DNA of 64,000 nt from Sphaerisporangium rubeum (lineage in GTDB: Bacteria; Actinomycetota; Actinomycetes; Streptosporangiales; Streptosporangiaceae): assembly GCF_014207705.1 (NCBI RefSeq), contig NZ_JACHIU010000001.1:2046001-2110000 (forward strand), read 5' to 3'. The notes under the pieces are model-generated. The model did no database searches. It saw only the letters and a list, made by a program, of their open reading frames with translations, and was not told where the DNA came from. Below, in pieces: positions 8,262 to 62,921 of the stretch. Made by a program: the position numbers and the translations under genes. Each line of letters starts with the position of its first letter. Within the stretch, counting starts at the first letter, position 1.

Positions 8262-8436
8262 GGTGGTGGCCCTTCTGGAGCGTGGTACGTGGTACTTCCC
8301 CGCGCGTCCGGCGACTCACCGCCGTACGCGGCGCCGGCTTCGCCGTACGTGGTTCCCGCCGTCGCGGCGCCGGCAACGACCGGCGGCTGGCGGTGGGGAA
8401 CAGGTGCCGGTGGTGTGGAGTGCCGGCGTGGGTGTG

Positions 8437-8628
8437 GACTTGGCCTCCGACGGCGCCGGTTGTGGAGTCGGGTGGGTGGGGTGTCGGTCAGGACGTTCGG
8501 GACTTGGCCTCCGACGGCGCCGGTTGTGGAGTCGGGTGGGTGGGGTGTCGGTCAGGACGTTCGGGACTTGGCCTCCGACGGCGCCGGTCGTGGAGTCGGG
8601 TGGGTGGGGTGTCGGTCAGGACGTTCGG
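8437..8628. repeat. 64-bp tandem repeat, three copies
   Basis: Units start at 8437, 8501 and 8565 with GACTTGGCCTCCGACGGCG. Copies 1 and 2 appear identical, and copy 3 differs by one base early on (GGTCGTGG for GGTTGTGG). It is non-coding by position between two minus-strand genes. Confidence 0.95.
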
Positions 8629-8651
8629 GAGGTGGGTGAGCAGGGGTGGGG

Positions 8652-15736: not shown

Positions 15737-15760
15737 CACCCCGACCTCCTTCGGCGGCGG

Positions 15761-15862
15761 GTCGGCCCGGTGGTGGGGTCGGCCCGGTGGTGGGGTCGGC
15801 CCGGTGGTGGGGTCGGCCCGGTGGTGGGGTCGGCCCGGTGGTGGGGTCGGCCCGGTGGTGGG
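15761..15862. repeat. 17-bp tandem repeat, six perfect copies plus degenerate tail
   Basis: GTCGGCCCGGTGGTGGG repeats exactly at 15761, 15778, 15795, 15812, 15829 and 15846. Degenerate versions continue to about 15930. It lies in the 324-bp gap (15737-16060) between the small charged protein and the convergent transporter gene. No gene is seen in that gap. Confidence 0.95.
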
Positions 15863-16060
15863 GTCGGCCCGATGGTCGTCTAGTGGTGGGTCGGCCTGGT
15901 GGTGGTGTGTGGTTGGTCGGCCCGGTGGTTGGTCGGTCGGGGATGAGCGACTGCGACCGGGTCGCTCACCGCCGTGTCCCGCGGGGGTTCGAACGGCGCC
16001 GACGCGGTGGGACGTGGTGCGGCGAATCCGGCGCCTTGGTACGGCGGGGCACCGGTCAGG

Positions 16061-28635: not shown

Positions 28636-28936
28636 CCCGTGCGGAGGCGTGGGTCGTACGGACTTCGGGACGGACCGAAATGGTCCGGGGTGGTCCGATG
28701 GCGACGCCTGCGCAAGATCCACTCAAGGTTTCGTCCGGTGGATCATCACCTTGAGAGATGAGCGGCTACTCCTGTGCTCACCTGCGGCTTTGCGGAGTGG
28801 ATCATAACGATTATGTTCAACTGAGCCATTCTGGCGTCGACATCCGTGACCTTGTGGTCGAATTATGCCCGCTTATGTACTTATCGGCCATGCCGTCATC
28901 CATGCATGGAAGATCGCGGGGGGTGGCACGGTACGG
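28636..28936. other. spacer between glnD and conservon 1
   Basis: Apart from the inverted repeat at 28722-28755, the 300-bp gap has an AT-richer stretch at 28785-28890 that is a reasonable place for the conservon promoter. I see no further gene. An in-frame upstream start at 28865 would shorten the gap. Confidence 0.5.
28722..28755 (+). terminator. candidate hairpin after glnD
   Basis: CTCAAGGT (28722-28729) and ACCTTGAG (28748-28755) form a perfect 8-bp inverted repeat with an 18-nt loop, 87 bases past the glnD stop. It could end the nitrogen operon or be an operator for the conservon that follows. Confidence 0.4.
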
Positions 28937-31897
28937 ATGGCAGAGAACAAGGAACCGGGGGGAGCCGGACAGGTCTCTGAGGGCGGCCACTCGGCGAGAG
29001 AACGGCGGCGCGGCGGCGACCGGCCACGTACCCGGCAGGGACAGCACGGCCAGCACGGCCGGGAACGGATCTCACGGCTCTCGCTGCGCAACTGGCGCGT
29101 GCCGGCCCGGCTCACGGCGCTGATCCTCGTGCCGACCGTCGTCGGCGTGCTGCTCGCGGGACTACGGGTGGTCTCGTCCATCGAAAGCGTGGGGACCTAC
29201 CAGCGGCACGCCACCGAGGCGGCGTCGGCCGCCGACCTGCGCGCGCTCGCGGCGGCGCTCGGACTGGAACGCGACAGAGCCATCTGGTCGCAGGTGTCCC
29301 GGCAGCAGCGGACGCCGCTGGCGCGGCAGCGTGAGGTCGTGGACGCCGCGGCGGCCAAGGTCCGCGAGGACGTCGCCGGGATCGGCCCCGAGCACGGCGC
29401 TCGTGCCGTCGAGGACGCGCGCCAGGTCGGCACGCGGCTGGACGCGCTCGCCGTGATCCGCGAGAGCGGCCGGCCCGCCGAGTACGGCACCGTCGTCGCC
29501 GCGGTGCTGCGCCTGCACGACGAGCTTCTGCAGCACAGCGATGACCCGCAGCTCACCAGTGGTTCGCGTGGCCTGATCGCGCTCGCGCACGCCAAGGAGG
29601 AGGCGTCGCAGCAACGCGGCACGCTCCTCGGCACGCTGGCACGGGGACGCAACTTCACGCCGGACACGCTTGAGGCGTTCATCGCCTCGCGGTCACGGCA
29701 GCGGGCCGAGCTGAACTCCTTCAACGCCGAGGCGGGGGCCGACAACGGACGGCTGCTCGCGCAGACCGTGCAGGGAGGGGAGGTCATCAGGGCCGAGCTG
29801 ACCAAGTCATGGGCCATCGCCCTGGCCAGCCGCAACCTGCCGATCCGGGACGCCGCGGGCCGGGCCTCGGCGATCAAGCAGTGGTTCGACGACAGCACCA
29901 AGACCATCGACCTGCTCGGCCAGGTGGAGCAGCGCGTCGCCTCCGGCGTGGCGAGCCGCGGTGTCGCGCTGGAGTCCACCGAGCGCCGCAACGCCATCAT
30001 CGCCGGCGTCCTGATCCTCGCACTGCTCCTGCTCGTGCTGACCACCACCGTGCTGATCGCGCGCTCCATGGTGCGTCCGCTGCGCCGCCTGCGCGCGGAG
30101 GCCCTGGAGATCGCGGGGTACCGCCTGCCGAGCGCGGTGCGCCGCATGCGTGAGGACGGCGCCACGCAGGCGCCGGACGTCCAGCCCATCCTCGTCGGCA
30201 CGGCCGACGAGATCGGTGAGGTCGCCACCGCCTTCGACGAGGTGCACCGGCAGGCGCTGTTCCTCGCCGCCGAGGAGTCGCAGCTGCGCGGCAACGTCAA
30301 CGCGATGTTCGTCAACCTGTCGCGGCGCATCCAGACCCTGGTGGAACGGCAGATCTCGCTGATCGACGGCCTTGAGCGCGGCGAGGAGGACGGCCGGCGC
30401 CTGGCGGACCTGTTCAAGCTGGACCACCTGGCCACCCGCATGCGCCGCAACAGTGAGAACCTCCTGGTCCTCGCGGGTCACGAGGCCGCGCGCAAGCGCA
30501 GCCAGCCCGCCAAACTCGTGGACGTCGTGCGCGCCTCGCTGTCGGAGGTCGAGGACTACCAGCGGGTCACGGTGAAGGTCCACCGCAGCGCGGCCATCGC
30601 CGGTCACGCCGCCAACGACGTGGTCCACCTCATCGCCGAGCTGGTCGAGAACGCGCTGTCGTTCTCCCCCGGCACCACCCGGGTCGTGGTGTCCAGCAGC
30701 ATGATCGAAGGCGGCGGCGCGCTGCTCGCGATCAGCGACTCCGGCATCGGCATGACGCAGGAGGAGGTCGCCGACGTCAACCGGCGGCTCGCCGACCCGC
30801 CGGTGGTGGACGTCTCGGTGTCCCGGCGCATGGGCCTGTTCGTGGTCGGCCGCCTTTCGCTGCGTCACGGCATCCGCGTGCAGATGCGCCGGGGGGACTC
30901 GGCCGGCCTCATCGCCATGGTGCTGTTCCCGCCTCAGCTCATCACGGTGGACGCCGGCCGCGTCCCCGCGGCGCCGCAGCAGAGCCTGCGGGCCGACCAG
31001 GGGGGACCGGTCACCGGCGGCAACGGCGCGTCGGCGCCGAGCGGTTCCTTCGCGCCGTTCGCCACACCCGGCACCGGCCCGGTCTCCGCGTTCGGCGACC
31101 CGCCGACCGGTCCCCACAACGCCGAGTCCCCGCAGGTCCCCCGGCAGGCCGCGTCTCCGCGCACCGGCCCCGCCACCGGCCCGGCCGGCCCGATCGGGGT
31201 GCCGTCCGGACCGTTCTCCGCCGACAGCGGGCCGTACGTGACCCGCGCTCCCGAGCCGTACGTGACCCGCGCGGACGGGCCCGACACGTTCGGAGGGCCG
31301 CCGTCCGGTCCGTCCGGTCACCCGGGAGGGTTCGCGCCTGAGGCCCCCACCGGTCCGTTCGGCCCGCCTGCCGACGCGCGGGGACCGGTCACCCCGGAGC
31401 CGCTCGGGCCGCGTACCGGACCGGCCGGCTCGCCGCTGGAACAGGGGGACGAGTACCTGCCGATCTTCGCCGCGGTGGAGTCGGCGTGGTTCCGCCGTCC
31501 CGACGCCGCGCGCGACGGCGAGGCGGCCGGGACCCCCGAGGGTCCCGCGACGCCGGACCGGCGCGAGGACGAGGAGGCCGTGCCGGCCGGCGGCTGGGGG
31601 ACGAGCGCCGACCAGGGCCGCCGAGCGGCCGACGCGGTGCGGGACCCCTCGCTCGGCGGCATCACCGCGGCCGGCCTGCCGAAGCGCACCCCGAAGGCCA
31701 ATCTCGTGCCGGGCTCGTTGCCGCCGGCCCCCGCACCCGCCGCGGCCCCCGCGCCGCGGCCCGCGCGTCCCGAGGTGTCGGCCGACGTGGTCCGCGCGCG
31801 GATGTCCCGCTTCCAGCAGGGCATCCAGCGTGGCCGCGCCGACATCTCCGAGGCGGCCACCCGCCGGCCCGGTCCCGAGGGGCCGGCCGGTGACTGA
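28937..31897 (+). CDS. cvnA: conservon 1 sensor-like histidine kinase CvnA
   Basis: About 986 aa. The order is: charged N terminus; membrane helix (about 59-79); nitrate/nitrite-sensing-type external helical domain (about 80-350); second helix (about 352-376); HAMP-like linker; dimerisation region with LDHLATRMRRN (His near 495); and HATPase_c (about 555-660; LIAELVENALSFSP, ISDSGIGMT). A Pro/Gly/Ala-rich disordered tail of about 320 residues contains EYLPIFAAVESAWFRR (31451-31498) and GLPKRTPKANLVPGS (31673-31717), then a final RMSRFQQGIQRGRA. Start ATG 28937 was chosen over 28865 for its position after GGGGGG; this is uncertain. Confidence 0.92.
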   Translation: MAENKEPGGAGQVSEGGHSARERRRGGDRPRTRQGQHGQHGRERISRLSLRNWRVPARLTALILVPTVVGVLLAGLRVVSSIESVGTYQRHATEAASAADLRALAAALGLERDRAIWSQVSRQQRTPLARQREVVDAAAAKVREDVAGIGPEHGARAVEDARQVGTRLDALAVIRESGRPAEYGTVVAAVLRLHDELLQHSDDPQLTSGSRGLIALAHAKEEASQQRGTLLGTLARGRNFTPDTLEAFIASRSRQRAELNSFNAEAGADNGRLLAQTVQGGEVIRAELTKSWAIALASRNLPIRDAAGRASAIKQWFDDSTKTIDLLGQVEQRVASGVASRGVALESTERRNAIIAGVLILALLLLVLTTTVLIARSMVRPLRRLRAEALEIAGYRLPSAVRRMREDGATQAPDVQPILVGTADEIGEVATAFDEVHRQALFLAAEESQLRGNVNAMFVNLSRRIQTLVERQISLIDGLERGEEDGRRLADLFKLDHLATRMRRNSENLLVLAGHEAARKRSQPAKLVDVVRASLSEVEDYQRVTVKVHRSAAIAGHAANDVVHLIAELVENALSFSPGTTRVVVSSSMIEGGGALLAISDSGIGMTQEEVADVNRRLADPPVVDVSVSRRMGLFVVGRLSLRHGIRVQMRRGDSAGLIAMVLFPPQLITVDAGRVPAAPQQSLRADQGGPVTGGNGASAPSGSFAPFATPGTGPVSAFGDPPTGPHNAESPQVPRQAASPRTGPATGPAGPIGVPSGPFSADSGPYVTRAPEPYVTRADGPDTFGGPPSGPSGHPGGFAPEAPTGPFGPPADARGPVTPEPLGPRTGPAGSPLEQGDEYLPIFAAVESAWFRRPDAARDGEAAGTPEGPATPDRREDEEAVPAGGWGTSADQGRRAADAVRDPSLGGITAAGLPKRTPKANLVPGSLPPAPAPAAAPAPRPARPEVSADVVRARMSRFQQGIQRGRADISEAATRRPGPEGPAGD

Positions 31898-31963
31898 TCC
31901 GCGACACCGGCGCCGGCCGCAGCAGAACCGGCAGTACGCAATGAACGCGATGAGGAGGGGCTC

Positions 31964-32386
31964 ATGATCGACCTGAGTCACGAGGCACGCAGGTTCGACT
32001 GGCTGATCACGGAGTTCGTCGGCGGGACGCCTGGCGTGGCGCACGCCGTCGTCGTCTCGGCCGACGGACTGCGCCTCGCGAACTCCGAGGGATTCCCGCC
32101 GGACCGGGCCGACCAGCTCGCCGCGGTCGCCGCGGGCCTGCTGAGCCTCACGGTGGGTGCGTCCCGCGTCTTCGACGGCGGCGGGGTCACGCAGACGGTG
32201 GTCGAGATGCAGCGCGGCATCATGCTGGTGATGGCCATCAGCGACGGGTCGTGTCTCGCGGTCCTGGCGTCGCCTGACTGCGACATGGGCCTGGTGGCCT
32301 ACCAGATGACGATGCTCGTCGAGCGGGTCGGGCAGGTTCTCACCCCCGCCTTGCGCGCCGAGTTGCAGACCTCCAGGATCCGGTGA
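31964..32386 (+). CDS. cvnB: conservon 1 roadblock/LC7 protein CvnB
   Basis: 140 aa roadblock/LC7 fold. Hallmarks are TPGVAHAVVVSADGLRLA, the Ala-rich LAAVAAGLLSL helix and a late CDMGLVAYQMTMLVERVGQ. In conservons this MglB-like protein is expected to interact with the CvnD GTPase. The ATG lies 66 bases after cvnA. The stop overlaps cvnC by 4 bases (GTGA). Confidence 0.96.
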   Translation: MIDLSHEARRFDWLITEFVGGTPGVAHAVVVSADGLRLANSEGFPPDRADQLAAVAAGLLSLTVGASRVFDGGGVTQTVVEMQRGIMLVMAISDGSCLAVLASPDCDMGLVAYQMTMLVERVGQVLTPALRAELQTSRIR

Positions 32387-32745
32387 TGCTGGGGGGTGAC
32401 GGGACCGAGGACGAGCCGCTCTTCCGTCCCTACGCCGTCACCGGGGGCCGTGCCGAGCCTGATTACCATCTCGCGATGGAGACACTTGTCTCATCGGCCC
32501 CGATAATGAGCGATGATTTGTCCTTGCTCACCCCGGAGCAAGAGGCGATCATCGTGCTCTGCCACTCCGTCCATTCGGTCGCGGAGATCTCCGCACTGCT
32601 GCGGGTTCCGCTCGGAGTGGCCCGCGTGCTGGTCGCCGACCTGGCCGACGAAGGTCTGGTACGTCTGCACCTGCCCCGGCTCGACCAAGGACAGCCTGAC
32701 CTCAACCTGCTCGAAAGGGTTCTCAGTGGACTTCGCAGGCTCTAG
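32383..32745 (+). CDS. cvnC: conservon 1 DUF742 protein CvnC
   Basis: 120 aa. An N-terminal FRPYAVTGGRAEP motif is followed by a winged-helix-like core (EAIIVLCHSVHSVAEISALLRVPLGVARVLVADLADEGLV) and the invariant end LLERVLSGLRRL. DUF742 is a conservon-specific family of unknown biochemical role. Its last 20 bases overlap cvnD in another frame. Confidence 0.95.
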   Translation: MMLGGDGTEDEPLFRPYAVTGGRAEPDYHLAMETLVSSAPIMSDDLSLLTPEQEAIIVLCHSVHSVAEISALLRVPLGVARVLVADLADEGLVRLHLPRLDQGQPDLNLLERVLSGLRRL

Positions 32746-33313
32746 CCGCGGCCCGGCGCTGACGTCGACCAAGATCGTCGTCGCCGGTGGCTTCGGCGTC
32801 GGCAAGACCACGTTCGTCGGCGCGGTGTCGGAGATCCTTCCCCTCACCACCGAGGCGGTCATGACCGACGCGAGCGCCGGCATCGACGACCTCGGTCTCA
32901 CCCCCCACAAGACGACGACCACCGTGGCCATGGACTTCGGCCGGTTGTCGCTGGACCAGGATCTCATCCTGTACTTGTTCGGCACCCCGGGCCAGCACCG
33001 GTTCTGGTTCATGTGGGACGACCTGGTGCGCGGCGCGATCGGCGCGGTGGTGCTGGTGGACACGCGGCGGCTGGCCGACTGCTTCCCCGCCATCGACTAC
33101 TTCGAGGAGGCGGGCCTGCCGTTCGTCGTGGCCGTCAACGGCTGGGACGGCCACTTCCCGCACGTCGAGATGGAGGTGCGCGAGGCGCTCACGCTCGCGC
33201 CGCACATCCCGATCGTGCGCACCGACGCGCGTGCCAGGGACGCCGTGAAGTCGACGCTGATCGCGCTGGTGGAGTACGTGCTGACCCTCCGCGCGGCGTA
33301 CGGCCGCGCCTGA
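32726..33313 (+). CDS. cvnD: conservon 1 small GTPase CvnD
   Basis: 195 aa Ras/MglA-like G protein. P loop GGFGVGKTTFVG, a switch region around DASAGIDDLG and KTTTTVAMDFGRL, the G3-like LYLFGTPGQHRFWFMWDDL, and VAVNGWDG in the G4 position (N-G-W-D instead of NKxD). The GTG start lies inside cvnC. Together with CvnA-C it is expected to form a membrane-associated signalling complex, as shown for Streptomyces cvn9. Confidence 0.95.
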   Translation: MDFAGSSRGPALTSTKIVVAGGFGVGKTTFVGAVSEILPLTTEAVMTDASAGIDDLGLTPHKTTTTVAMDFGRLSLDQDLILYLFGTPGQHRFWFMWDDLVRGAIGAVVLVDTRRLADCFPAIDYFEEAGLPFVVAVNGWDGHFPHVEMEVREALTLAPHIPIVRTDARARDAVKSTLIALVEYVLTLRAAYGRA

Positions 33314-41576: not shown

Positions 41577-41954
41577 GCCCGTGATCCGCCTCTGTGGTCA
41601 CATCTGTCGCGTTCTGCCACCTTCGTGATTGTCTCCCGGCGCCGGTCCGGAACCGGCGCCGGAGCGAGGACGACTGGGCCATGATGGGCGATGTCAGTCG
41701 ATCCGCCGCCGGGTCAGGAACACGTGTCGTCCCGGTCCCCCGTGCTCTCCGCTCGCATAGTTACGGAAGCGAGAAGGGGGATTTATCCGCTTAGATGGGT
41801 GTTTGGTGACATTTGTCAATCAATGTGCTGTTGGCCGATCTGGTACGGGTGTGTTGCAATTACCCTCGCCTGATGGATGTCTCGGACGTCTCATGCGCCC
41901 CGCGCGTGACGTACCCCCCTACACGCCAGGCCCGGTGAGAGGTTGCGAAATCCA
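41577..41954. other. 378-bp gene-free spacer before conservon 2
   Basis: It holds the hairpin at 41636-41662, then an AT-richer stretch (about 41755-41880) likely to contain the conservon 2 promoter. No gene is seen. The last 20 bases (GAGAGGTTGCGA then GTG) resemble the corresponding site before conservon 3. Confidence 0.55.
41636..41662 (+). terminator. hairpin terminator after the glycosyltransferase
   Basis: CCGGCGCCGGT and ACCGGCGCCGG are a perfect 11-bp stem with a 5-nt loop, 60 bases after the stop codon. No U-run. Confidence 0.6.
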
Positions 41955-44900
41955 GTGAGCACACAGGACCCTCGGGGCAATCCGGGTCGTAGTGGCCGCG
42001 TGGAGCGGTCCGCGTCCCCCTTGCCACGCACGCAGAAGGGCGGAAGCTGGCTCAGGCTGCGCAACTGGCGTGTGCGATCACGACTGATCGCCCTCATCAT
42101 CATCCCCACCATCGTCGGCGTGATCCTCGGCGCCGTGCAGCTCACCAACGCCGTCGGCACGTCCGGCGAGTACAGCCGTCTCACCGAGGTCGCCGCCCTC
42201 GTCGAACGCATCGACGTCCTCATCCATGAAGTGGACAAGGAACGCGACCTCACCGCGTGGTACATCGCGGAGGGCCGCCGCCAGGCCCGCTTCAAGAAGG
42301 TGCGCGAACAGCAGGACGCCGTCGACCAGGCCCGCGAACCGGTGCTCTCCATGGTCTCCGACCTGGACTCCTCGCACACCGCGCGTGTCCGCGCCGAAGC
42401 CGACGAGATCCGCCGCTGGCTGGAAGGCCTGCCGGGTCTGCGTGAACGTATCGCCGAGCCGTCGGTGCCCCCCCGAGCGGCGCTGCGCATGTACTCCGCC
42501 GTGATCGGCGTCCTGCAGAGCATGCAGGGCGAGCTCGGCACCTCCGGCTTCGACCAGCGCCTGCTCGGCGACAGCATCGCGCTCAACGCGCTCAGCCAGG
42601 CCAAGGAAGAGGTCGCGCGCCAGCGCGGCCTCATGACCGTCGCCCTGACCTCCCGCGCCTCCGGCGGCACCGGGTTCGACTACGACGACTTCGTCGACTT
42701 CCCCGGTTCGTTCAGCCGCCAGGAGAGCCAGACCACGAGGTTCTTCGCCGAGGCCTCCCCGGCCGACGTGGACTTCTACAACGACACCGTGCGCGGCCAG
42801 CAGGTCGACCGGGCCGACTCGATGCGCGCGCTCGCGCTGGCGCAGCTGCGGCAGTTCAAGGAGATCCAGGACCTCGACCCGCTGCGCCGCGACGACACCT
42901 CGGTCTGGTACGCCGCCACCTCCGCGGTGGTCGACCGCATGCGCCAGGTCGAGGAACGGCTCGCCGGATCGGTCGTCCAGCAGAGCCAGGCCCTTCGTGA
43001 CGAGGCGCAGCGGCAGGCCCTCATCTCCGGTGGCCTCATCCTCGTACTGCTGCTGCTGGTCCTCATCATCACCGCCGTCGTCGCGAGCTCGCTGACCCGG
43101 CCGCTGCGCCGCCTGCGCGCCGAGGCACTGGAGATCGCCGGCGTGCGGCTGCCGGAGACGGTGCAGCGTCTGCGCGAGTCCTCCGACAGCAACCCGTCGG
43201 CCGAGGTCATTCCCATCGGCGTGTCCTCCAGGGACGAGATGGGTGAGGTCGCGCGGGCCTTCGACGAGGTCCACCGCGAGGCGATCCGCCTGGCCGGTGA
43301 CGAGGCCCGCCTGCGCAGCAACGTCAACGCGATGTTCGTCAACCTCTCCCGGCGCAGCCAGACGCTGGTGGAACGGCAGCTCAGCCTCATCGACGGACTG
43401 GAGCAGGGCGAACAGGACGAGAACCGTCTGTCCAACCTGTTCAAGCTGGACCACCTGGCCACCCGCATGCGCCGCAACAGCGAGAACCTGCTGGTCCTCG
43501 CGGGGCAGGAGCCCGCGCGGCGCTGGAGCCAGCCCGTCCCGCTGGTCGACATCGTGCGTGCCTCGCTGTCGGAGGTCGAGGGGTACGAGCGGGTGGACCT
43601 GCGCGTCCAGTCCGGCACCTCCGTCGTCGGCCAGGCCGTGAACGACGTCGTGCACCTGGTGGCCGAGCTGGTGGAGAACGCCATCTCCTTCTCGCCGCGC
43701 GAGACCAAGGTCCTGGTGTCGAGCAACCGCATCGACGGCGGCGGCGTCATGATCTCGGTGAGCGACAGCGGGATCGGCATGACGGCCGACGAACTGGCCG
43801 AGGCCAACTGGCGGCTCGCCAACCCGCCGGTGGTGGACGTGTCGGTGTCCCGGCGCATGGGCCTGTTCGTGGTCGGCCGCCTCGCGCTGCGCCACAACAT
43901 CCGCGTCCAGTTGCGCCAGCAGGACGCCGGCGGGCTCAACGCCATGGTGCTGCTGCCGGACGCTCTGCTGTCGGCGACCGGCGCGCCGCAGTTCGCCGGC
44001 ATGCCGGCCGAGGCGATGGGCCCGGCGACCGGCGGGCAGTACGGAGCGCCGCAGGCGCCGTCGTTCGGCGCTCCCGGCGGCGGCTTCGAACCGGCGCGCG
44101 GCGGCGCTCGTCCGGCGGCCTTCGGCGCCGACGACCACGCCGTGCCGGCCCCGGCCGGCGGCCAGGGCACGTTCCCCGGGTCGTTCGAGCGCGACAATCC
44201 CTTCGAGCGGTTCGAGCGCGACCCGTTCGAGCGGCCCGCCGCGGCCCGGTCGCCTTTCGAACGGTCAGGCGCGCCACGCGACATGTTCGAGAGCCCCGCC
44301 GTCGCGCAGCCGCCGGGAGGCAATCCGTTCGAGCGCGCCGACGGCCAGGACCCGTTCGACAAGTACTTCAACCCCAACCCGCCGCTCGACACCCCGTGGC
44401 CGGCGGACGTGCCACCGCCGGGCAGCGGCGCCGGCGCCGGCTGGCCGGGTCTCGCCGACCAGGAGACCGCGTCGTGGCCCGCCGTACCCGGCGGTCCGCA
44501 GGGACCGTCGTCGTACGGCGGCGCGCAGGGCCCCTCGTCGTTCGGCGGCCCGCAAGGACCGTCGTCGTTCGGCGGCCCGCAGGGACCGTCGTCGTTCGGC
44601 GGTCCGCCGACCGGCGGCTCGATGTTCGGCCCGCCGACCGGCGGCTCGGCCACAGGACCGCTGGCGGCCGGTCCGCTCGGCCGGTCCAGCCGCTTCGGCG
44701 GCGTACCCGACCTGGACCACACCGGTCCCCTCCCCGCCGTGAGCAGTTCCGCGCTCGACGGCGGCGAGGAGGAATACCTGCCGATCTTCGCCGCGGTCGA
44801 GTCGGACTGGTTCCGCCGCAGCGACCTCCCCGCGCAGCCGCAGAGCGAAGAGGTCGTCGTGCGCGAGGAGCAGCCGGTGCCGTCCGCCGGCAGGCACGAC

Positions 44901-45227
44901 GACGAGGAGCCGGCGCGGGCCTGGTCGTCCCCAGGTGACGCCGGCTGGCAGGCCGCGCAGGCGGTCAAGGAGCCGTCACTCGGCGGCGTCACCTCCTCAG
45001 GCCTCCCGAAGCGCGTCCCGAAGGCCAACCTCGTGCCGGGGTCGGCCGAGCCGACCCCTTCGGTGTTCAGCCCGCCACCCTCGCTGTCACCCGACCGGGT
45101 GCGCAGCCGGCTGTCGAGCTTCCAAGAGGGTGTGCGCAAGGGCCGGGCCGTGGCCCGGGGCGAACATCTCGACGAGGACTCTTCTTCACCCATGAGAAAC
45201 AGTGAACGGAACAAGGAGGACTCGTGA
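41955..45227 (+). CDS. cvnA: conservon 2 sensor-like histidine kinase CvnA
   Basis: 1090 aa from GTG 41955. It has membrane helices at about 40-62 and 354-380 that flank the external helical domain. A HAMP-like linker follows, then LDHLATRMRRN near 497 and HATPase_c about 562-668 (LVAELVENAISFSP, VSDSGIGMT). The tail of about 420 residues has repeated Phe-Glu-Arg words (NPFERFERDPFER) and a four-unit QGPSSFGGP repeat. EEYLPIFAAVESDWFRR follows (from 44769), then GLPKRVPKANLVPGS and RLSSFQEGVRKGRA. GAGAGG 12 bases before the GTG supports this start. The end overlaps cvnB (GTGA). Confidence 0.94.
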   Translation: MSTQDPRGNPGRSGRVERSASPLPRTQKGGSWLRLRNWRVRSRLIALIIIPTIVGVILGAVQLTNAVGTSGEYSRLTEVAALVERIDVLIHEVDKERDLTAWYIAEGRRQARFKKVREQQDAVDQAREPVLSMVSDLDSSHTARVRAEADEIRRWLEGLPGLRERIAEPSVPPRAALRMYSAVIGVLQSMQGELGTSGFDQRLLGDSIALNALSQAKEEVARQRGLMTVALTSRASGGTGFDYDDFVDFPGSFSRQESQTTRFFAEASPADVDFYNDTVRGQQVDRADSMRALALAQLRQFKEIQDLDPLRRDDTSVWYAATSAVVDRMRQVEERLAGSVVQQSQALRDEAQRQALISGGLILVLLLLVLIITAVVASSLTRPLRRLRAEALEIAGVRLPETVQRLRESSDSNPSAEVIPIGVSSRDEMGEVARAFDEVHREAIRLAGDEARLRSNVNAMFVNLSRRSQTLVERQLSLIDGLEQGEQDENRLSNLFKLDHLATRMRRNSENLLVLAGQEPARRWSQPVPLVDIVRASLSEVEGYERVDLRVQSGTSVVGQAVNDVVHLVAELVENAISFSPRETKVLVSSNRIDGGGVMISVSDSGIGMTADELAEANWRLANPPVVDVSVSRRMGLFVVGRLALRHNIRVQLRQQDAGGLNAMVLLPDALLSATGAPQFAGMPAEAMGPATGGQYGAPQAPSFGAPGGGFEPARGGARPAAFGADDHAVPAPAGGQGTFPGSFERDNPFERFERDPFERPAAARSPFERSGAPRDMFESPAVAQPPGGNPFERADGQDPFDKYFNPNPPLDTPWPADVPPPGSGAGAGWPGLADQETASWPAVPGGPQGPSSYGGAQGPSSFGGPQGPSSFGGPQGPSSFGGPPTGGSMFGPPTGGSATGPLAAGPLGRSSRFGGVPDLDHTGPLPAVSSSALDGGEEEYLPIFAAVESDWFRRSDLPAQPQSEEVVVREEQPVPSAGRHDDEEPARAWSSPGDAGWQAAQAVKEPSLGGVTSSGLPKRVPKANLVPGSAEPTPSVFSPPPSLSPDRVRSRLSSFQEGVRKGRAVARGEHLDEDSSSPMRNSERNKEDS
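44499..44606 (+). repeat. 27-bp in-frame tandem repeat in the CvnA2 tail
   Basis: Four units start at 44499, 44526, 44553 and 44580, each encoding QGPSS(Y/F)GG(A/P). The last two units differ by a single base. It adds to a low-complexity, probably flexible linker. Confidence 0.9.
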
Positions 45228-45646
45228 GGGAGCTGAGCCAGGCTGCTCGCGGAGTCAACTGGTTGATCACCGACTTCGTGAACAACGTGCCGGGGGTGGC
45301 CCACACCGTGGTCGTCTCCTCGGACGGGTTGCCGCTGGCGTTCTCCGAGGGCTTTCCAAAGGATCGGGCCGATCAACTGGCGGCGGTCGCCGCGGGCCTG
45401 ATCAGCCTGACTCAAGGCGCCTCCCGGGTGTTCGAGGGGGGTGCGGTCACGCAGACCGTGGTGGAGATGCAGCGTGGGTTGTTGCTGATCATGTCGATCA
45501 GTGACGGTTCGTGCCTGGCCGTGCTGGCGGCCCCGGACTGTGACATGGGTCTGGTGGCCTACCAGATGACTTTGCTTGTCGAGCGTGCCGGTCAGGTCTT
45601 GACCCCGGCGGTGCGTGCAGAACTCCAGGCGTCTCAACCTCGGTGA
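45224..45646 (+). CDS. cvnB: conservon 2 roadblock/LC7 protein CvnB
   Basis: 140 aa. The start MRELSQAARGVNWLITDFVNNVPGVAHTVVVSSDGL and end LLVERAGQVLTPAVRAELQASQPR match the conservon 3 copy nearly throughout. GTG start coupled to cvnA2. The stretch 45419-45570 differs from conservon 3 at only one base (45507), pointing to recent recombination between the copies. Confidence 0.96.
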   Translation: MRELSQAARGVNWLITDFVNNVPGVAHTVVVSSDGLPLAFSEGFPKDRADQLAAVAAGLISLTQGASRVFEGGAVTQTVVEMQRGLLLIMSISDGSCLAVLAAPDCDMGLVAYQMTLLVERAGQVLTPAVRAELQASQPR

Positions 45647-45669
45647 GACGCCGGTGAGAGGAGAAGGCT

Positions 45670-46137
45670 GTGGCACCCCGCGGCTGGACGGATGACGGTG
45701 ACCCGCTGAGCGGGCCGCCGTCCTACCCGTCGATCAACGACGCGCGCCGGTACCCCGGCGACGCGCCGGCACCACCGGGGCCGGGCCCCGGGCCGGTGGA
45801 GCAGAGCTCCCTGGTACGTCCCTACGCCATGACGGGTGGCCGCACCGCTCCACGGACCGCGCTCGCCCTTGAGGCCCTGGTCTCCTCCTTGTTGTCGACC
45901 CATCAAGACATCTCGACGCTCACCCCGGAGAAGCAGGCGATCAGCCAGCTCTGCCGCCAGGTGCGGTCGGTCGCCGAGATCGCCGCGCTGCTCCGCGTGC
46001 CCCTCGGGGTGGCCCGTGTCGTCATCGCCGACATGGCCGCCGAGGGCCTGGTCCAGGTCCACCAGCCGCAACTGGACACGGGTAAGCCTGATCTCAACTT
46101 GCTCGAAAGGGTTCTCAGTGGACTTCGCAGGCTCTAA
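45670..46137 (+). CDS. cvnC: conservon 2 DUF742 protein CvnC
   Basis: 155 aa from a GTG following GAGAGGAGAAGGC. The N terminus is about 35 residues longer than in the other two copies and Pro/Gly-rich (PGDAPAPPGPGPGP). It is followed by VRPYAMTGGRTAP and the helix-turn-helix-like core LCRQVRSVAEIAALLRVPLGVARVVIADMAAEGLV, then LLERVLSGLRRL. Confidence 0.95.
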   Translation: MAPRGWTDDGDPLSGPPSYPSINDARRYPGDAPAPPGPGPGPVEQSSLVRPYAMTGGRTAPRTALALEALVSSLLSTHQDISTLTPEKQAISQLCRQVRSVAEIAALLRVPLGVARVVIADMAAEGLVQVHQPQLDTGKPDLNLLERVLSGLRRL

Positions 46138-46438
46138 CCGGGCCCCGGCACTGACCTCGACGAAGATCGTCGTCGCCGGGGGCTTCGGCGTCGGCAAGAC
46201 GACCTTCGTCGGCGCCGTGTCGGAGATCGTCCCCCTCACCACAGAAGCCGTCATGACCGACGCCAGCGCCGGCATCGACGACCTGGGACTCACCCCCCAC
46301 AAGACCACGACCACCGTCGCCATGGACTTCGGCCGCGTGTCACTGGACCAGGACCTCATCCTGTACCTGTTCGGCACCCCCGGCCAGCACCGCTTCTGGT
46401 TCATGTGGGACGACCTCGTACGCGGCGCCATCGGCGCG
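46093..46438 (+). repeat. 346-bp perfect repeat, copy in conservon 2
   Basis: Identical base for base to 55480-55825 (offset 9387). It covers the cvnC end, the overlap and the 5' half of cvnD. Flanks on both sides differ. Confidence 0.95.
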
Positions 46439-46714
46439 GTGGTGCTGGTGGACACGCGGCGGCTGGCCGACTGCTTCCCCGCCATCGACTACTTCGAGGA
46501 GGCGCAGCTGCCGTTCGTGGTCGGCGTCAACGGCTGGGACGGGCACTACGCGCACGCCGACGAGGAGGTCCGTGAGGCGCTGACCCTCGCGCCGCACATC
46601 CCGCTGGTCCGCACCGACGCGCGTTCGCGCGACTCGGTGAAGTCCACGCTGATCGCGCTGGTGGAACACGCGCTGACGATGCGGGTGGCGGTCCCCGGCT
46701 GGGGAGGCCGCTGA
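46118..46714 (+). CDS. cvnD: conservon 2 small GTPase CvnD
   Basis: 198 aa, same motifs as the other CvnD proteins (GGFGVGKTTFVG, FGTPGQHRFWFMWDDL, VGVNGWDG). Its DNA is a mosaic: bases up to 46438 are identical to cvnD3 over 346 bp (counting the cvnC end), and 46430-46504 are identical to cvnD1. Only the last third is its own. GTG start inside cvnC. Confidence 0.95.
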   Translation: MDFAGSNRAPALTSTKIVVAGGFGVGKTTFVGAVSEIVPLTTEAVMTDASAGIDDLGLTPHKTTTTVAMDFGRVSLDQDLILYLFGTPGQHRFWFMWDDLVRGAIGAVVLVDTRRLADCFPAIDYFEEAQLPFVVGVNGWDGHYAHADEEVREALTLAPHIPLVRTDARSRDSVKSTLIALVEHALTMRVAVPGWGGR

Positions 46715-51252: not shown

Positions 51253-51686
51253 TCGGTGTCCTTATTTGGGATATGTGGGGGGTTTGTGACTTTGGGTGCC
51301 ATTTGGGGACGCTGACTTGGCGAGCGTGAAGCCTAGCGTGCACGATTCCGGGCTTACACCGCCAAGCCGCATTTGTCATGAAACTCGTAAGAAAGTCCAG
51401 TTTGGTGTGCTATGTGAAGTTAGGCGGCCTATGGGACCTTGGAACGCGGTAAATGCGGATCTGGTGATATATCAGACCGACCGTGTGCTTGTGATGTCGG
51501 TGAACTCGTGTGCCTGGTCATTGACTGAAGCGTAGGCGACGGAATAAAGATTTGGAACGTTCTAAACCGCCATACTGCTTGGTTGAACTCCTGGCTATAT
51601 GCTCCAATTGCCCCCTGACTTGCCATGTGTCACACCATTCACATGGTTTCCCCCCAACGCAGACCAGCCGCGAGAGGTTGCGACCA
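51253..51686. other. 434-bp divergent spacer before conservon 3
   Basis: AT-richer than the surroundings over most of its length, as expected for a divergent promoter region serving the importer and conservon 3. I see no gene. No strong palindrome was noted. Confidence 0.5.
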
Positions 51687-54600
51687 GTGAGGACAGCAAC
51701 AATCGAGAGCGGTCGCCGCGACACGCCGGGCGCAACCCCGCCTTCCTCCGACCCGGGTGAGCAGGCCGCTCCTCCGATGCAGTCGTCCAGAAGGTCGGTG
51801 GCCCTGCGCAACTGGCGGGTGCGAACCCGTCTCATCGCGCTCATCCTGGTGCCGACACTGGTGGCCGTCCTCCTCGGCGGTCTCCGCGTGTACGGCTCGA
51901 TCCAGAGCGCCTCGGAGTACGAGCGCCTCCGCACGGTCGCCGAATTCGGCATCAACCTGGCCGACCTGGTACACGAGATCGACCTGGAACGCGACCTGTC
52001 GGTGCGGTTCGTCGCCAACGGCCGCCGCGGGAACCAGGCACGCCTGCTCATCCGGGACCAGCAGAACGCCGTGGACGCCGCCGCGCAGATCGTCGCGGAC
52101 CGGCGCGAGGTCGTGGAACCCAGTCTCGGCAGCATCGGCCGGCAGGCGTACCGGCGTGTGCTCGGCCGGATGGCCCAGCTCCGCACCCTGCGCGAGACCA
52201 TCGGAGAGTCCCAGCTTCCGCCGCTGCCTTCGATGCAGAAGTACAACGAGGTCAACGACGACATCCTCGCGCTGTTCGACGAAGTGGGCCGAGGCGGTGG
52301 CGACGAGGCGCTGAGCTCGCGGGCCGCGGCGCTCACCTCACTGGTCCGGGCCGCCGAGCAGGCGTCCCGCCAGCGCGGCCTGATGTCCATCGCTCTGACC
52401 TTCCACGCGTTCGACCCGACGTTGCTGGAGGCGTTCAACGCGGCCCGCGCGCAGCAGGCCAGCGAACTGAGCGCCTTCCTGTTCCGGGCCGGCGCCACCG
52501 AACGTCAACGCTACTCCGACACCGTCACGAGCCCGCTGATCGACCGCGCCGCCGGTGTGGTGGACCGCGTGCTGTCACTCGCACGCGAAGGCGCGGAGCT
52601 GCGAAACCTCAGCGGTGGCGCCGAGAGCGACGTCGACTACTGGTTCAAGGCCGCGAGCGACGGGCTGGACCGCATGCAGGTCGTGCAGCGGGCCCTCGGC
52701 CGCACCATCGTCGACCAGGCCTCGGAGTTCGCGCGGTCCGACCAGAGCCAGGCCGCGATCGACATCGCCGTGCTCGCCGTGCTGCTCATCATGGTCCTCG
52801 TCATCACCACCGTCGTGGCGCGCTCACTGGTGAGCCCGCTGCGGCGGCTGCGCCGCGAGGCGCTGGAGATCGCCGGCCGCCGCCTGCCCGAGCTGGTGCA
52901 GAAGCTGCGCGAGTCCGAGGCGTCGGAGGGGCCGCCTGACGTGCGGCCGATCGGCGTGATGTCCAACGACGAGGTCGGCGAGGTCGCGCGCGCGTTCGAC
53001 GAGGTGCACCGCGAGGCGATCCGCCTCGCGAGCGACGAGGCGCAGCTGCGCAGCAACGTCAGCGCCATGTTCGTCAACCTGTCGCGGCGCACGCAGACCC
53101 TGGTGGAACGGCAGATCAGCCTGATCGACGGTCTCGAACAGGGCGAGCAGGACGACGGCAGGCTCGGCGACCTGTTCCGCCTGGACCACCTGGCGACCCG
53201 CATGCGCCGCAACAGTGAGAACCTGCTGGTCCTCGCCGGCCAGGAGCCCGCGCGGCGGTGGAGCCAGCCGGTGCCGCTGCTGGACATCGCGCGCGCGTCG
53301 CTGTCGGAGGTCGAGAACTACGAGCGGGTCGCGATGAACGTCCCGACCGGGGTGTCCATCGCCGGCCAGGCGGTCAACGACGTCATCCACCTCCTGGCGG
53401 AGCTGGTGGAGAACGCCATCTCGTTCTCGCCGCGCGAGACCAGGGTCACCATGACGGCCAACCGCATCGACGGCGGCGGCGTGATGATCTCCATCACCGA
53501 CGCCGGCATCGGGATGACCGACGAGGAACTGGCCCAGACCAACTGGCGCCTCGCGCACCCGCCGGTGGTGGACGTGTCGGTGTCCCGGCGCATGGGCCTG
53601 TTCGTGGTCGGCCGCCTCGCGCTGCGCAACGGCATTCGCGTGCAGCTGCGGCGGCACGACGGCGGCGGGCTCACCGCGATGGTGCTGCTGCCGGAGACGC
53701 TGATGGGCACACCCACCCACGCGCCTGGCGGTCCCGCCACCGCCGGAGCGCCTGCCTGGGCCTCGTCCGGGCAGCCGGCCGGCCTGTTCACGCCGGCGGC
53801 CGCGACCGCCGGGTCCTCGTCGTTCGGCCCCATGACCGGTCCCTACGGCCCGGCCACCGGCGGCACCAACGGCGCCGGAGGCCTCGGGCCGATGGGCCCC
53901 ACCACCGGAGGCGGCTACGGGTACGGCGGGTACGGCGATCCGTCCACCGGCCCCGGCGGCCACGGCGGCTACGGGGATCCGTCCACCGGTCAGGGCAACC
54001 ACGGCGGCTACGGCGGCCCGCCGTCCGGGCCGGGCATGTTCGGCGGTCCTGCCACCGGCGCGTTCGGCGGCCCGTCCACCGGCGGGTACGCCGGCCCGTC
54101 CACCGGGCCCGCCACCGGCGCGTTCGGCGGCCCGGCAACCGGCCCCTCCATGGGTTCTCCTCCAGGGCCGGGACGCTTCGGTCCACCTACGGGCCCGCCG
54201 ACGAGCGAGATGCCACCGGTGCGGATGCGCCCCCGCCGTTACGAGACCTCCGAGCAGGACGCCGCCACCGGCCCGCTTCCCGTCGTGCGCAGCGCGCCAA
54301 TGGAACAGGAGGAGTACTTGCCGATCTTCGCCGCCGTCGAGTCGGCCTGGTTCCGGCGTGCCGAGCCGAACGCACCGGAGGCCCCGGTGGCCGGCTGGCA
54401 GGAGGCCGCGGCGGACCGCGGCTGGCAGGCCGCGGCCGTCGTACAGGAGCCGGTGCGGGACGGCACCACATCCGCCGGTCTGCCGAAGCGGGTACCGAAG
54501 GCCAACCTGGTCCCCGGCTCGGCGAACACCGCCGAGCAGGGCCCGTCGTCGCCGGCGCCGGCAATGCCGCCGCTGTCCCCCGAGCGGGCACGCAACCGCC

Positions 54601-54713
54601 TGTCCAGCTTTCAGCAAGGCATCCGGCAGGGCCGCGCGGTCGCCCGGGGCGAGCTGAGCGAGGACGAGGTGCCGTACAAAACTGAGCTGCGTCGCATGGA
54701 GGAAGAGCAGTGA
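51687..54713 (+). CDS. cvnA: conservon 3 sensor-like histidine kinase CvnA
   Basis: 1008 aa from GTG 51687, placed after GAGAGGTTGCGA as in conservon 2. Helices lie at about 50-70 and 357-381 around the external helical domain. LDHLATRMRRN is near 498 and HATPase_c at about 560-670 (LLAELVENAISFSP, ITDAGIGMT). The tail of about 335 residues is dominated by Gly-Tyr-Gly-Asp-Pro-Ser-Thr and Gly-Pro-(A/S)-Thr-Gly units. EEYLPIFAAVESAWFRR follows (from 54309), then GLPKRVPKANLVPGS and RLSSFQQGIRQGRA. The stop overlaps cvnB (GTGA). Confidence 0.94.
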   Translation: MRTATIESGRRDTPGATPPSSDPGEQAAPPMQSSRRSVALRNWRVRTRLIALILVPTLVAVLLGGLRVYGSIQSASEYERLRTVAEFGINLADLVHEIDLERDLSVRFVANGRRGNQARLLIRDQQNAVDAAAQIVADRREVVEPSLGSIGRQAYRRVLGRMAQLRTLRETIGESQLPPLPSMQKYNEVNDDILALFDEVGRGGGDEALSSRAAALTSLVRAAEQASRQRGLMSIALTFHAFDPTLLEAFNAARAQQASELSAFLFRAGATERQRYSDTVTSPLIDRAAGVVDRVLSLAREGAELRNLSGGAESDVDYWFKAASDGLDRMQVVQRALGRTIVDQASEFARSDQSQAAIDIAVLAVLLIMVLVITTVVARSLVSPLRRLRREALEIAGRRLPELVQKLRESEASEGPPDVRPIGVMSNDEVGEVARAFDEVHREAIRLASDEAQLRSNVSAMFVNLSRRTQTLVERQISLIDGLEQGEQDDGRLGDLFRLDHLATRMRRNSENLLVLAGQEPARRWSQPVPLLDIARASLSEVENYERVAMNVPTGVSIAGQAVNDVIHLLAELVENAISFSPRETRVTMTANRIDGGGVMISITDAGIGMTDEELAQTNWRLAHPPVVDVSVSRRMGLFVVGRLALRNGIRVQLRRHDGGGLTAMVLLPETLMGTPTHAPGGPATAGAPAWASSGQPAGLFTPAAATAGSSSFGPMTGPYGPATGGTNGAGGLGPMGPTTGGGYGYGGYGDPSTGPGGHGGYGDPSTGQGNHGGYGGPPSGPGMFGGPATGAFGGPSTGGYAGPSTGPATGAFGGPATGPSMGSPPGPGRFGPPTGPPTSEMPPVRMRPRRYETSEQDAATGPLPVVRSAPMEQEEYLPIFAAVESAWFRRAEPNAPEAPVAGWQEAAADRGWQAAAVVQEPVRDGTTSAGLPKRVPKANLVPGSANTAEQGPSSPAPAMPPLSPERARNRLSSFQQGIRQGRAVARGELSEDEVPYKTELRRMEEEQ

Positions 54714-55132
54714 GGGAGCTGAGCCAGGCCGCTCGCGGTATCAACTGGTTGATCACCGATTTCGTCCGCGGCGTTCCGGGAGTGGCGCACACGGTGGTCG
54801 TCTCGTCCGACGGACTGCCACTGGCCTACTCGGAGGGCTTTCCGAAGGACAGGGCCGATCAGCTGGCGGCGGTCGCCGCGGGCCTGATCAGCCTGACCCA
54901 GGGAGCCTCCCGGGTGTTCGAGGGGGGTGCGGTCACGCAGACCGTGGTGGAGATGCAGCGTGGGTTGTTGCTGATCATGTCGATCAGTGACGGCTCGTGC
55001 CTGGCCGTGCTGGCGGCCCCGGACTGTGACATGGGTCTGGTGGCCTACCAGATGACGCTGATGGTCGAGCGCGCCGGTCAAGTGCTGACCCCGGCCGTGC
55101 GCGCCGAGCTTCAGGCGTCGTCGCCGCGGTGA
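54710..55132 (+). CDS. cvnB: conservon 3 roadblock/LC7 protein CvnB
   Basis: 140 aa, GTG start coupled to cvnA3. Nearly the same protein as the conservon 2 CvnB; it differs at positions such as FVRGVPG for FVNNVPG and LMVERAGQ for LLVERAGQ. The DNA stretch 54905-55056 differs from conservon 2 at one base. Confidence 0.96.
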   Translation: MRELSQAARGINWLITDFVRGVPGVAHTVVVSSDGLPLAYSEGFPKDRADQLAAVAAGLISLTQGASRVFEGGAVTQTVVEMQRGLLLIMSISDGSCLAVLAAPDCDMGLVAYQMTLMVERAGQVLTPAVRAELQASSPR

Positions 55133-55524
55133 CGTCCATGGGTGGCGGTCCCGGCTGGGAGGACGGCTTACGGCCTTACCAGCCGGAGCCGTCCTCACCG
55201 GTGCGTCCCTTCACCGTCACCGGTGGCCGGTCGGCGCCGCGGACGCATCTGGCCATGGAGACGCTGGTGCACTCCACAATTCCGGCTTACCACGACCTCT
55301 CCGGACTGATTCCTGAGTACCAGGCGATCTGCTCGCTCTGCCGCCAGGTGCGGTCGGTCGCCGAGATCTCCGCGTTGCTGCGCGTGCCGCTCGGCGTGGC
55401 CCGCGTCCTCATCTCGGACATGGCCGCCGAAGGACTCGTCCAGCTGCACCAGCCGCAACTGGACGCCGGAAAGCCGGACCTCAACTTGCTCGAAAGGGTT
55501 CTCAGTGGACTTCGCAGGCTCTAA
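55129..55524 (+). CDS. cvnC: conservon 3 DUF742 protein CvnC
   Basis: 131 aa from a GTG overlapping cvnB by 4 bases. VRPFTVTGGRSAP, then LCRQVRSVAEISALLRVPLGVARVLISDMAAEGLV and LLERVLSGLRRL. Codon 14 (55168-55170) is TTA, the rare bldA-dependent codon, in a gene otherwise of normal GC-rich codon use. Confidence 0.95.
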   Translation: MTSMGGGPGWEDGLRPYQPEPSSPVRPFTVTGGRSAPRTHLAMETLVHSTIPAYHDLSGLIPEYQAICSLCRQVRSVAEISALLRVPLGVARVLISDMAAEGLVQLHQPQLDAGKPDLNLLERVLSGLRRL

Positions 55525-55825
55525 CCGGGCCCCGGCACTGACCTCGACGAAGATCGTCGTCGCCGGGGGCTTCGGCGTCGGCAAGACGACCTTCGTCGGC
55601 GCCGTGTCGGAGATCGTCCCCCTCACCACAGAAGCCGTCATGACCGACGCCAGCGCCGGCATCGACGACCTGGGACTCACCCCCCACAAGACCACGACCA
55701 CCGTCGCCATGGACTTCGGCCGCGTGTCACTGGACCAGGACCTCATCCTGTACCTGTTCGGCACCCCCGGCCAGCACCGCTTCTGGTTCATGTGGGACGA
55801 CCTCGTACGCGGCGCCATCGGCGCG
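55480..55825 (+). repeat. 346-bp perfect repeat, copy in conservon 3
   Basis: Partner of 46093-46438. Direct orientation, so recombination between the two could also delete the intervening 9.4 kb. Confidence 0.95.
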
Positions 55826-56098
55826 ATCGTGCTGGTCGACACCCGGCGCCTGGCCGACAGTTTTCCCGCCATCGACTACTTCGAGGAGGCGAAACTGCCG
55901 TTCGTCATCGGGCTCAACGGCTGGGACGGCCAGCACCCCTACCAGGAGGAGGAGGTGCGCGACGCGCTCACGCTCGGGCCGCACATCCCGATCGTGCGCA
56001 CCGACGCACGGAAACGGGAAATGGTGAAGAGCACGCTGATCTCCCTGGTCGAGCACGCGCTCACCATGCGCGTCTCGGTGCCAGGCCGGCGCGGCTGA
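55505..56098 (+). CDS. cvnD: conservon 3 small GTPase CvnD
   Basis: 197 aa with all CvnD motifs (GGFGVGKTTFVG, FGTPGQHRFWFMWDDL, IGLNGWDG). The first 321 bases are identical to cvnD2; after 55825 the copies diverge sharply. GTG start inside cvnC. Confidence 0.95.
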   Translation: MDFAGSNRAPALTSTKIVVAGGFGVGKTTFVGAVSEIVPLTTEAVMTDASAGIDDLGLTPHKTTTTVAMDFGRVSLDQDLILYLFGTPGQHRFWFMWDDLVRGAIGAIVLVDTRRLADSFPAIDYFEEAKLPFVIGLNGWDGQHPYQEEEVRDALTLGPHIPIVRTDARKREMVKSTLISLVEHALTMRVSVPGRRG

Positions 56099-62412: not shown

Positions 62413-62424
62413 CGACGACGTCCC

Positions 62425-62712
62425 CGACCGGCACGAGCGCTAGAACCGGCACGCGAACTCACCAGCGTCCTGTTCCGCACCGCGTTCTGCGGCAGCCGAC
62501 GGGCACGAGCGCCAGGACCGGCACGCGAACCCACCAGCGTCCTGTTCCGCACCGCGTTCTGCGGCAGCCGACCGGCACGAGCGCTAGAACCGGCACGCGA
62601 ACTCACCAGCGTCCTGTTCCGCACCGCGTTCTGCGGCAGCCGACGGGCACGAGCGCCAGGACCGGCACGCGAACCCACCAGCGTCCTGTTCCGCACCGCG
62701 TTCTGCGGCAGC
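62425..62712. repeat. nested tandem repeat: four 72-bp units arranged as a perfect 144-bp duplication
   Basis: Units begin at 62425, 62497, 62569 and 62641. Units 1 and 3 are identical, as are 2 and 4, while the 1/3 and 2/4 types differ at several bases (CGACCGG/CGACGGG, GCTAGAA/GCCAGGA, ACTCACC/CCCACC). A decayed fifth unit starts at 62713. Each unit contains CCGCA-N8-TGCGG, a small hairpin. It fills most of the 509-bp gap between lepB and rnhB, which holds no gene. Confidence 0.95.
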
Positions 62713-62921
62713 CGACCGGCACGTGTACCCGGGACCGCCGGCCGCCGTGCGTCGATCCCTGACCAGGACGCTCTTCCGGACCGCCGATAGCCGTACCCGA
62801 TGGGACCGATCGGGCGTAGGCTTGGCCGCATGGTCGTGCTCGAAACGTCGTTCGACGCCACCGGTGCCAGGCCGGCTCGCGGGTCCGTCGACTTGCGGTG
62901 GGGCGGCGAGCCGGCAGCCTT

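Follow-up and report, generated by a model that had tools for sequence, protein, structure and literature searches.

Gene conversion among three conservon operons of Sphaerisporangium, with a probable recent transfer from cvnD2 into cvnD3

The window analysed here, a stretch of 64,000 nucleotides from the genome of Sphaerisporangium rubeum (one contig of 7.5 Mb), contains three conservon operons, all oriented alike on the forward strand: cvnA1-D1 (28865-33313), cvnA2-D2 (41943-46714) and cvnA3-D3 (51552-56098). Each encodes, in this order, a sensor-kinase-like CvnA, a roadblock CvnB, a DUF742 CvnC and a small GTPase CvnD, the arrangement given for conservons in the available parts of PMC13343842 and PMC4316618. 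The open reading frame cvnA1 (28865-31897) has Pfam matches to NIT, HAMP and HATPase_c, and those of the sensor-kinase-like cvnA2 (41943-45227) and cvnA3 (51552-54713), whose coordinates are taken from the first possible start, match histidine-kinase models. PF03259 identifies the roadblock/LC7 genes cvnB1 (31964-32386) and cvnB2 (45224-45646, MglB/MfpD-like); the open reading frame cvnB3 (54710-55132) was assigned by its 95.7% identity to cvnB2 and not by Pfam. All three cvnC genes, namely cvnC1 (32383-32745), cvnC2 (45670-46137, start uncertain) and cvnC3 (55129-55524), match PF05331. PF03029 is found in all three cvnD frames, which encode MglA-like small GTPases of 195, 198 and 197 aa: cvnD1 (32726-33313), cvnD2 (46118-46714, with a GTG start at 46118) and cvnD3 (55505-56098).

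The 3' parts of cvnA2 (44489-44661) and cvnA3 (53923-54150) contain repeats of 24-39 bp, and because the units differ between the two genes, the CvnA C-terminal tails diverge through repeat change. Tandem arrays also occur elsewhere in the window: a 17-bp unit present seven times at 15759-15876 (99% matching), a 64-bp unit present three times at 8436-8630 (99% matching), and 4.2 copies of a 72-bp unit at 62424-62723, which match at 100% when read as a 144-bp unit. The same genome carries two full-length rpoB-like genes (G000:C1:1429225-1431882 and 4909607-4912900, with open reading frames 1165 and 1191 aa long), and rpoB-like duplicates are seen in several congeners too. The rpoB matches, which also included fragments, were set aside for tree building.

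Three motifs of the GTPase can be read from the translation of CvnD2: 22-GFGVGKT-28 (G1), 86-GTPGQ-90 (G3) and 138-NGWD-141 (G4). All elements of the pattern described for MfpB are present, namely GxxxGKT in G1, GxxGQ in G3 and an N-x-x-D that replaces NKxD in G4. Residues G26, K27, T28, G86, G89, Q90 and N138 are unchanged across 30 sequences. From 35 family regions, the analysis used 30 cvnD genes of 11 family genomes and set aside the three regions of G022, L123 (G038), L140 (G066) and the second of the cvnD genes on L131. In two conservons of G022 (L142, L143), some 0.7-0.9 kb separates cvnD from the cvn gene before it, and L143 has a second, diverged cvnD-like stretch. A sequence search of the PDB returned only weak matches to Sec4 and Rab18 (best E 0.0017). 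When a structure model of CvnD2 (mean pLDDT 67, with switch I, residues 37-68, poorly modelled) was compared with the PDB by Foldseek, MglA structures ranked first (6izw_A, E 2.1e-9). As modelled, CvnD2 is a Ras-like fold nearest to MglA. For the related MfpB-MfpD pair, the part of PMC13015309 that is available has the switch I residue Lys61 modelled in contact with Asp33 of MfpD, the roadblock partner; the counterpart of Lys61 (MfpB numbering) in CvnD is K62.

The second operon shares exact DNA with both of the others. A preliminary description of the window had reported two matches, and re-comparison confirmed both: 46093-46438 equals 55480-55825 at 346/346 positions, and 46430-46504 equals 33038-33112, within cvnD1, at 75/75 positions. 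Both matches are exact and maximal, and they overlap by nine bases. The 346-bp tract begins 25 bp upstream of the cvnD2 GTG, within the 3' end of cvnC2, and consists of the last 45 bp of cvnC2, including the stop codon, and codons 1-107 of the 198 of cvnD2; its counterpart, 9387 bp away, covers the 3' end of cvnC3 and the 5' part of cvnD3. Just upstream of the tract the differences between the two copies are scattered, and downstream the divergence is strong. Since G4 (codons 138-141) and the G5-like motifs fall outside it, the tract corresponds to the P-loop/switch half of the GTPase and not to every nucleotide-binding motif. A second island of near-identity lies in cvnB, where 45419-45570 of cvnB2 and 54905-55056 of cvnB3 agree at 151/152 positions (89 + 62 bp exact, around a single mismatch); cvnC2 lies between the two islands.

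The significance of these matches was judged against the same three operons from eight congeners with complete copies (G001-G004, G006, G008-G010). The nine-genome tests excluded G005, whose cvnD genes are interrupted by N gaps and the ends of contigs, and G007, in which no cvnD2 was found; G007 was retained in the tract and 3' trees and in the approximately unbiased (AU) test. In the 321 coding bases that the tract contains, cvnD2 and cvnD3 show no differences in the window genome, as against 22-36 in each of the eight congeners. The identity extends to synonymous sites, as had been claimed for it: 0/107 third positions differ here, as against 20-28 of about 106 in the congeners. The product of the per-site identity frequencies in the congeners gives the 346-bp match a log10P of -21.3. 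For copies 2 and 3 taken from different species, the longest run in the same regions of about 1.6 kb is 74 bp (72 pairs), and the longest runs inside the nine genomes are 346, 176, 158, 147, 129, 84, 68, 59 and 53 bp, of which six exceed the cross-species maximum. The 346-bp tract has sharp borders, and the trees on either side of them conflict. This tract is a real and recent product of gene conversion. Altogether, ten runs reached a log10P of -5 or below: seven in cvnD, two in cvnB and one in cvnC. The cvnC run, 46 bp in G003 with a log10P of -6.1, is as strong as many of the cvnD runs and counts against the explanation preferred below. Runs with log10P between -3 and -5, mostly shorter than 40 bp where they lie in cvnA, were set aside as rate or alignment noise.

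Homogenization of operons 2 and 3 within a genome recurs in Sphaerisporangium. If the copies had only diverged, the copy 3 of a species should be as distant from its copy 2 as is the copy 3 of another species. Distances at fourfold-degenerate sites were therefore compared within and between the nine genomes, with 20,000 permutations. Between operons 2 and 3, same-genome distances are well below other-genome distances for cvnB (0.313 vs 0.443, p 0.00005) and for the first 321 bp of cvnD (0.259 vs 0.368, p 0.00005), and this holds when the window genome is omitted (cvnB, 0.313 vs 0.439, p 0.00005; cvnD, 0.291 vs 0.351, p 0.0001). The 3' end of cvnD gives no same-genome effect in the same nine-genome permutation test (0.500 vs 0.503, p 0.42). 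There is little or no homogenization of cvnC (0.403 vs 0.417, p 0.11), except at its 3' end, and the value for cvnA is 0.417 vs 0.428 (p 0.03). These small same-genome effects in cvnA and cvnC, with differences of up to 0.024 and p values of 0.009-0.11, also count against the preferred explanation. Sliding windows place the effect for copies 2 and 3 in approximately codons 21-120 of cvnB and codons 1-140 of cvnD, with a weaker effect over alignment codons 601-780 of cvnA. Copy 1 takes part mainly in cvnD, with a peak at codons 81-140, and shows small effects in cvnA and, with copy 3, in codons 1-60 of cvnB; for cvnB1 as a whole there is no strong homogenization with either cvnB2 or cvnB3 (p 0.76 and 0.20).

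The effect is most direct in codons 41-120 of cvnB, where the same-genome distance lies below the minimum of the 72 cross-species pairs in six of the nine genomes; in the window genome it is 6/46 fourfold sites, as against a cross-species minimum of 0.255. Paralogues of one genome are thus closer to each other at synonymous sites than they are between genomes, which is the mark of concerted evolution. Beyond Sphaerisporangium, exact runs of at least 60 bp between copies of one genome occur in 6/11 genomes examined. In the tract tree, cvnD sequences from G014, G015 and G047 cluster by genome, which in the 3' part they do not do, or do differently, with only moderate support for several of the branches. 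The spacing of the operons varies in one congener, G008 (L024), where about 4.3 kb separates the matches to operons 1 and 2, as against roughly 12-14 kb in the other congeners in which one contig holds both operons; the genes between these operons therefore differ. The earlier claim of gene conversion is strongly supported by the divergence seen in congeners, by the conflict between trees and by the homogenization within genomes across the genus.

Two accounts of the 346-bp identity would dispense with recombination in the living cell. Purifying selection and biased codon usage might by themselves hold the 5' halves identical, since the amino acids of this half are very conserved and its GC content is 70%, and this combination could account for the 75-bp match. 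Third positions of the tract nevertheless diverge in every congener compared, and cvnA and cvnC, which have the same codon usage, show an absent or tiny same-genome effect; on these two grounds pure selection or codon bias was rejected, and it is hardly credible as the cause of the longer tract. The identity might instead have been produced during assembly or polishing, by correction of one copy with reads of the other. The draft genome of the congener G005 (L017, L018) has N gaps inside cvnD3 and cvnD2 and contigs that break there, as is expected for identical stretches in a short-read assembly, so that these genes do cause assemblers difficulty. The window genome is one contig, however, the copies normally diverge by about 10% and here differ sharply right outside the tract, and comparable same-genome runs (187, 176, 158, 147, 134 and 129 bp) are found in independent assemblies, which makes an artefact of this kind very improbable.

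The status of the 75-bp match between cvnD2 and cvnD1 is quite different. The preliminary description took cvnD2 to consist in part of cvnD1-identical DNA, and the exact identity stands; as proof of an event it is weak, with a log10P of -2.8 before correction, and it indicates no direction of transfer. Among cross-species pairs of operons 1 and 2, runs of at least 75 bp occur in 1/72 and runs of at least 60 bp in 6/72. The match was accordingly rejected as independent proof of a second event, on its log10P and on that one cross-species pair. Over codons 108-129 of cvnD, same-genome copies of operons 1 and 2 are closer than other-genome copies (0.213 vs 0.405, permutation p 0.0006; p 0.006 without the window genome). 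The 75-bp match may be a remnant of conversion, in sequence so conserved that the match alone is weak evidence.

The direction of the 346-bp transfer can be approached through diagnostic codons, those whose state separates every cvnD2 of seven congeners from every cvnD3 (the window genome, G000, and G010 were not used to define them). At those inside the tract (codons 11, 59, 61, 78 and 79), the cvnD3 of the window genome is of the D2 type in 5/5 cases, and at those outside it (119, 135, 137, 153, 163, 170, 191, 196 and 198) it is of the D3 type in 9/9. The cvnD2 of the same genome is of the D2 type at 5/5 inside and 8/9 outside, the ninth codon being of neither type. Correspondingly, the tract tree groups this cvnD3 (G000_D3) with its own cvnD2, apart from the D3 clade, and the tree of the 3' part places it inside that clade (98). 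The residues brought into CvnD3 would be T59 and H61, which adjoin K62 (itself inside the converted part), and Q78/D79, which lie in the strands preceding the GTPGQ motif; G005 and G007 have the D3-type I59, S/T78 and E79 in their cvnD3. Given that conversion took place, cvnD2 (46093-46438) was probably the donor and cvnD3 (55480-55825) the mosaic recipient. The preliminary description had named cvnD2 as the mosaic gene; the conversion that it proposed stands, and its polarity is probably reversed.

The reading that best fits the data, and that we regard as likely, is that the three conservons exchange DNA by homologous, non-reciprocal gene conversion between direct-orientation cvnABCD operons, presumably through RecA-type recombination. 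In the latest event, operon 3 would have received a copy of about 346 bp of operon 2, which lies 9.4 kb away; the copied DNA comprised the cvnC 3' end and cvnD codons 1-107 and left a chimeric cvnD3 whose P-loop/switch half is of the cvnD2 type and whose C-terminal half is native. Constraint at the protein level would preserve similarity in the middle of cvnB and in the P-loop/switch half of cvnD, and conversion would then wipe out the synonymous differences; diverged stretches, namely cvnC, the greater part of cvnA and the 3' end of cvnD, would be out of its reach. Homogenization is correlated with the cross-species identity of codon positions 1 and 2 (Spearman 0.52, 0.42 and 0.48 for the three operon pairs), a correlation that is partly circular because past conversion itself raises identity. 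The earlier proposal that conversion keeps the nucleotide-binding half of the GTPases alike probably inverts cause and effect, since homogenization follows local conservation (Spearman 0.42-0.52) and identity-gated recombination suffices to explain it. It seems, from sequence comparison, that purifying selection on the protein sets where conversion can happen. MutS (TIGR01070) was found in 0/5 genomes searched, with a search that was positive in 11/14 control genomes, and NucS was found in 5/5; with NucS and no detected MutS, exchange between imperfect repeats may be easier.

Two further alternatives accept conversion and differ on its direction or its cause. The DNA may have passed from cvnD3 to cvnD2, with T59/Q78/D79 as ancestral residues that cvnD3 kept in the lineage of the window genome and G010. 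The cvnD3 of G010, the probable sister of the window genome, likewise has T59/Q78/D79, so that the replacement may in part be of earlier date, or ancestral, and in the cvnA+cvnC tree the two genomes are sisters on one side of the midpoint root. Nucleotide diagnostic sites in the tract are D2-state at 4/5 (6/7 in a second subset), and the remaining site, which is D3-state (1/5, or 1/7), counts against transfer from cvnD2. With a lnL difference of 2.4, the reverse direction is not rejected by the AU test (p 0.40), for which reason direction was not taken from the nucleotide tree alone; nor is a single D3 clade in the tract, with identical rows left free (lnL difference 17.2, p 0.19). Against this reversal, the nine other congeners with a readable cvnD3 all have I59 and E79, G007 and the first-branching G005 included (in the gyrB tree, the other ten genomes come together with moderate support, 89/83), and it is cvnD3 that switches type at the 3' breakpoint, cvnD2 being of the D2 type on both sides. 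Transfer from cvnD3 is therefore unlikely. The other alternative is that homogenization is adaptive, having been selected to keep the switch surfaces of the GAP-like CvnB and of CvnD interchangeable between operons. The islands do fall in the roadblock gene and in the switch half of the GTPase gene that goes with it, with the intervening cvnC skipped, and K62, the counterpart of the Lys61 modelled against MfpD Asp33 in the accessible part of PMC13015309, lies within the converted part. The islands also follow local sequence identity, however, which makes selection for sameness unnecessary, and conversion erased CvnD3-type residues that nine other species have kept, which speaks against strict selection either way. 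An adaptive origin is unlikely.

The cvnD3 of G010 (L028) is a separate chimera, D2-type at codons 59, 78, 79, 119 and 153 and D3-type at 61, 135, 137 and 163, and along one run of 119 bp it matches the cvnD2 of the same genome exactly.

Gene conversion is well established in bacteria, as for the duplicates tufA and tufB of Salmonella (PMC5485169, seen in part). The conservon case resembles it, so far as that portion goes, in that transfer is non-reciprocal, joins chromosomal duplicates and yields continuous tracts, which in tuf were measured experimentally. It differs in that the tuf copies are nearly identical throughout (12 differences in 1185 nt), whereas only parts of the cvn genes, which are about 90% similar, exchange; also unlike the Salmonella system as given in that portion, the cvn donor genome has no detected MutS. 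A survey found long-lasting concerted evolution in 26 prokaryotic genes and attributed it to recurrent gene conversion, and the accessible portion of that report states that many of these genes encode interacting proteins (PMC6053082). The conservons share with those cases a greater closeness of same-genome paralogues than of orthologues at synonymous sites. The survey, as far as its accessible portion goes, centres on concerted evolution over full lengths and for that reason left part-gene cases aside, whereas the cvn effect is limited to parts of genes; the conservons thus provide a clear example, in bacteria, of concerted evolution that is still under way in the class that PMC6053082 set aside. 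The words "GTPase" and "Streptomyces" do not occur in the accessible text of that survey, its tables being covered in part. The accessible portions of the conservon papers PMC13343842 and PMC4316618 mention duplication and loss and not recombination between conservons: "recombination" occurs in neither paper, and "gene conversion" does not occur in PMC4316618. No literature on gene conversion between conservons was found in a search limited to open-access sources. Gene conversion is itself well known, and for conservon operons it is, within that literature, without a description that we could find.

A speculative extension, which we think rather doubtful, is that the three conservons form one network, in which a switch core maintained by conversion (the middle of CvnB and the P-loop/switch half of CvnD) would serve private inputs (CvnA) and private outputs (CvnC and the C-terminal half of CvnD). 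Because CvnD3 appears to have gained a switch I neighbourhood of the CvnD2 type, with T59 and H61 beside K62, CvnB2 should now act on CvnD3. If so, cross-talk would arise by gene conversion in a single step. Actinomycetes often carry many conservons, and the exchange described here bears on how specificity and cross-talk between conservons are set. If parts of the GTPase and the roadblock protein are repeatedly copied between operons, trees of whole cvnB or cvnD genes would mislead as to orthology, and switch and effector surfaces could be newly combined in a single step.
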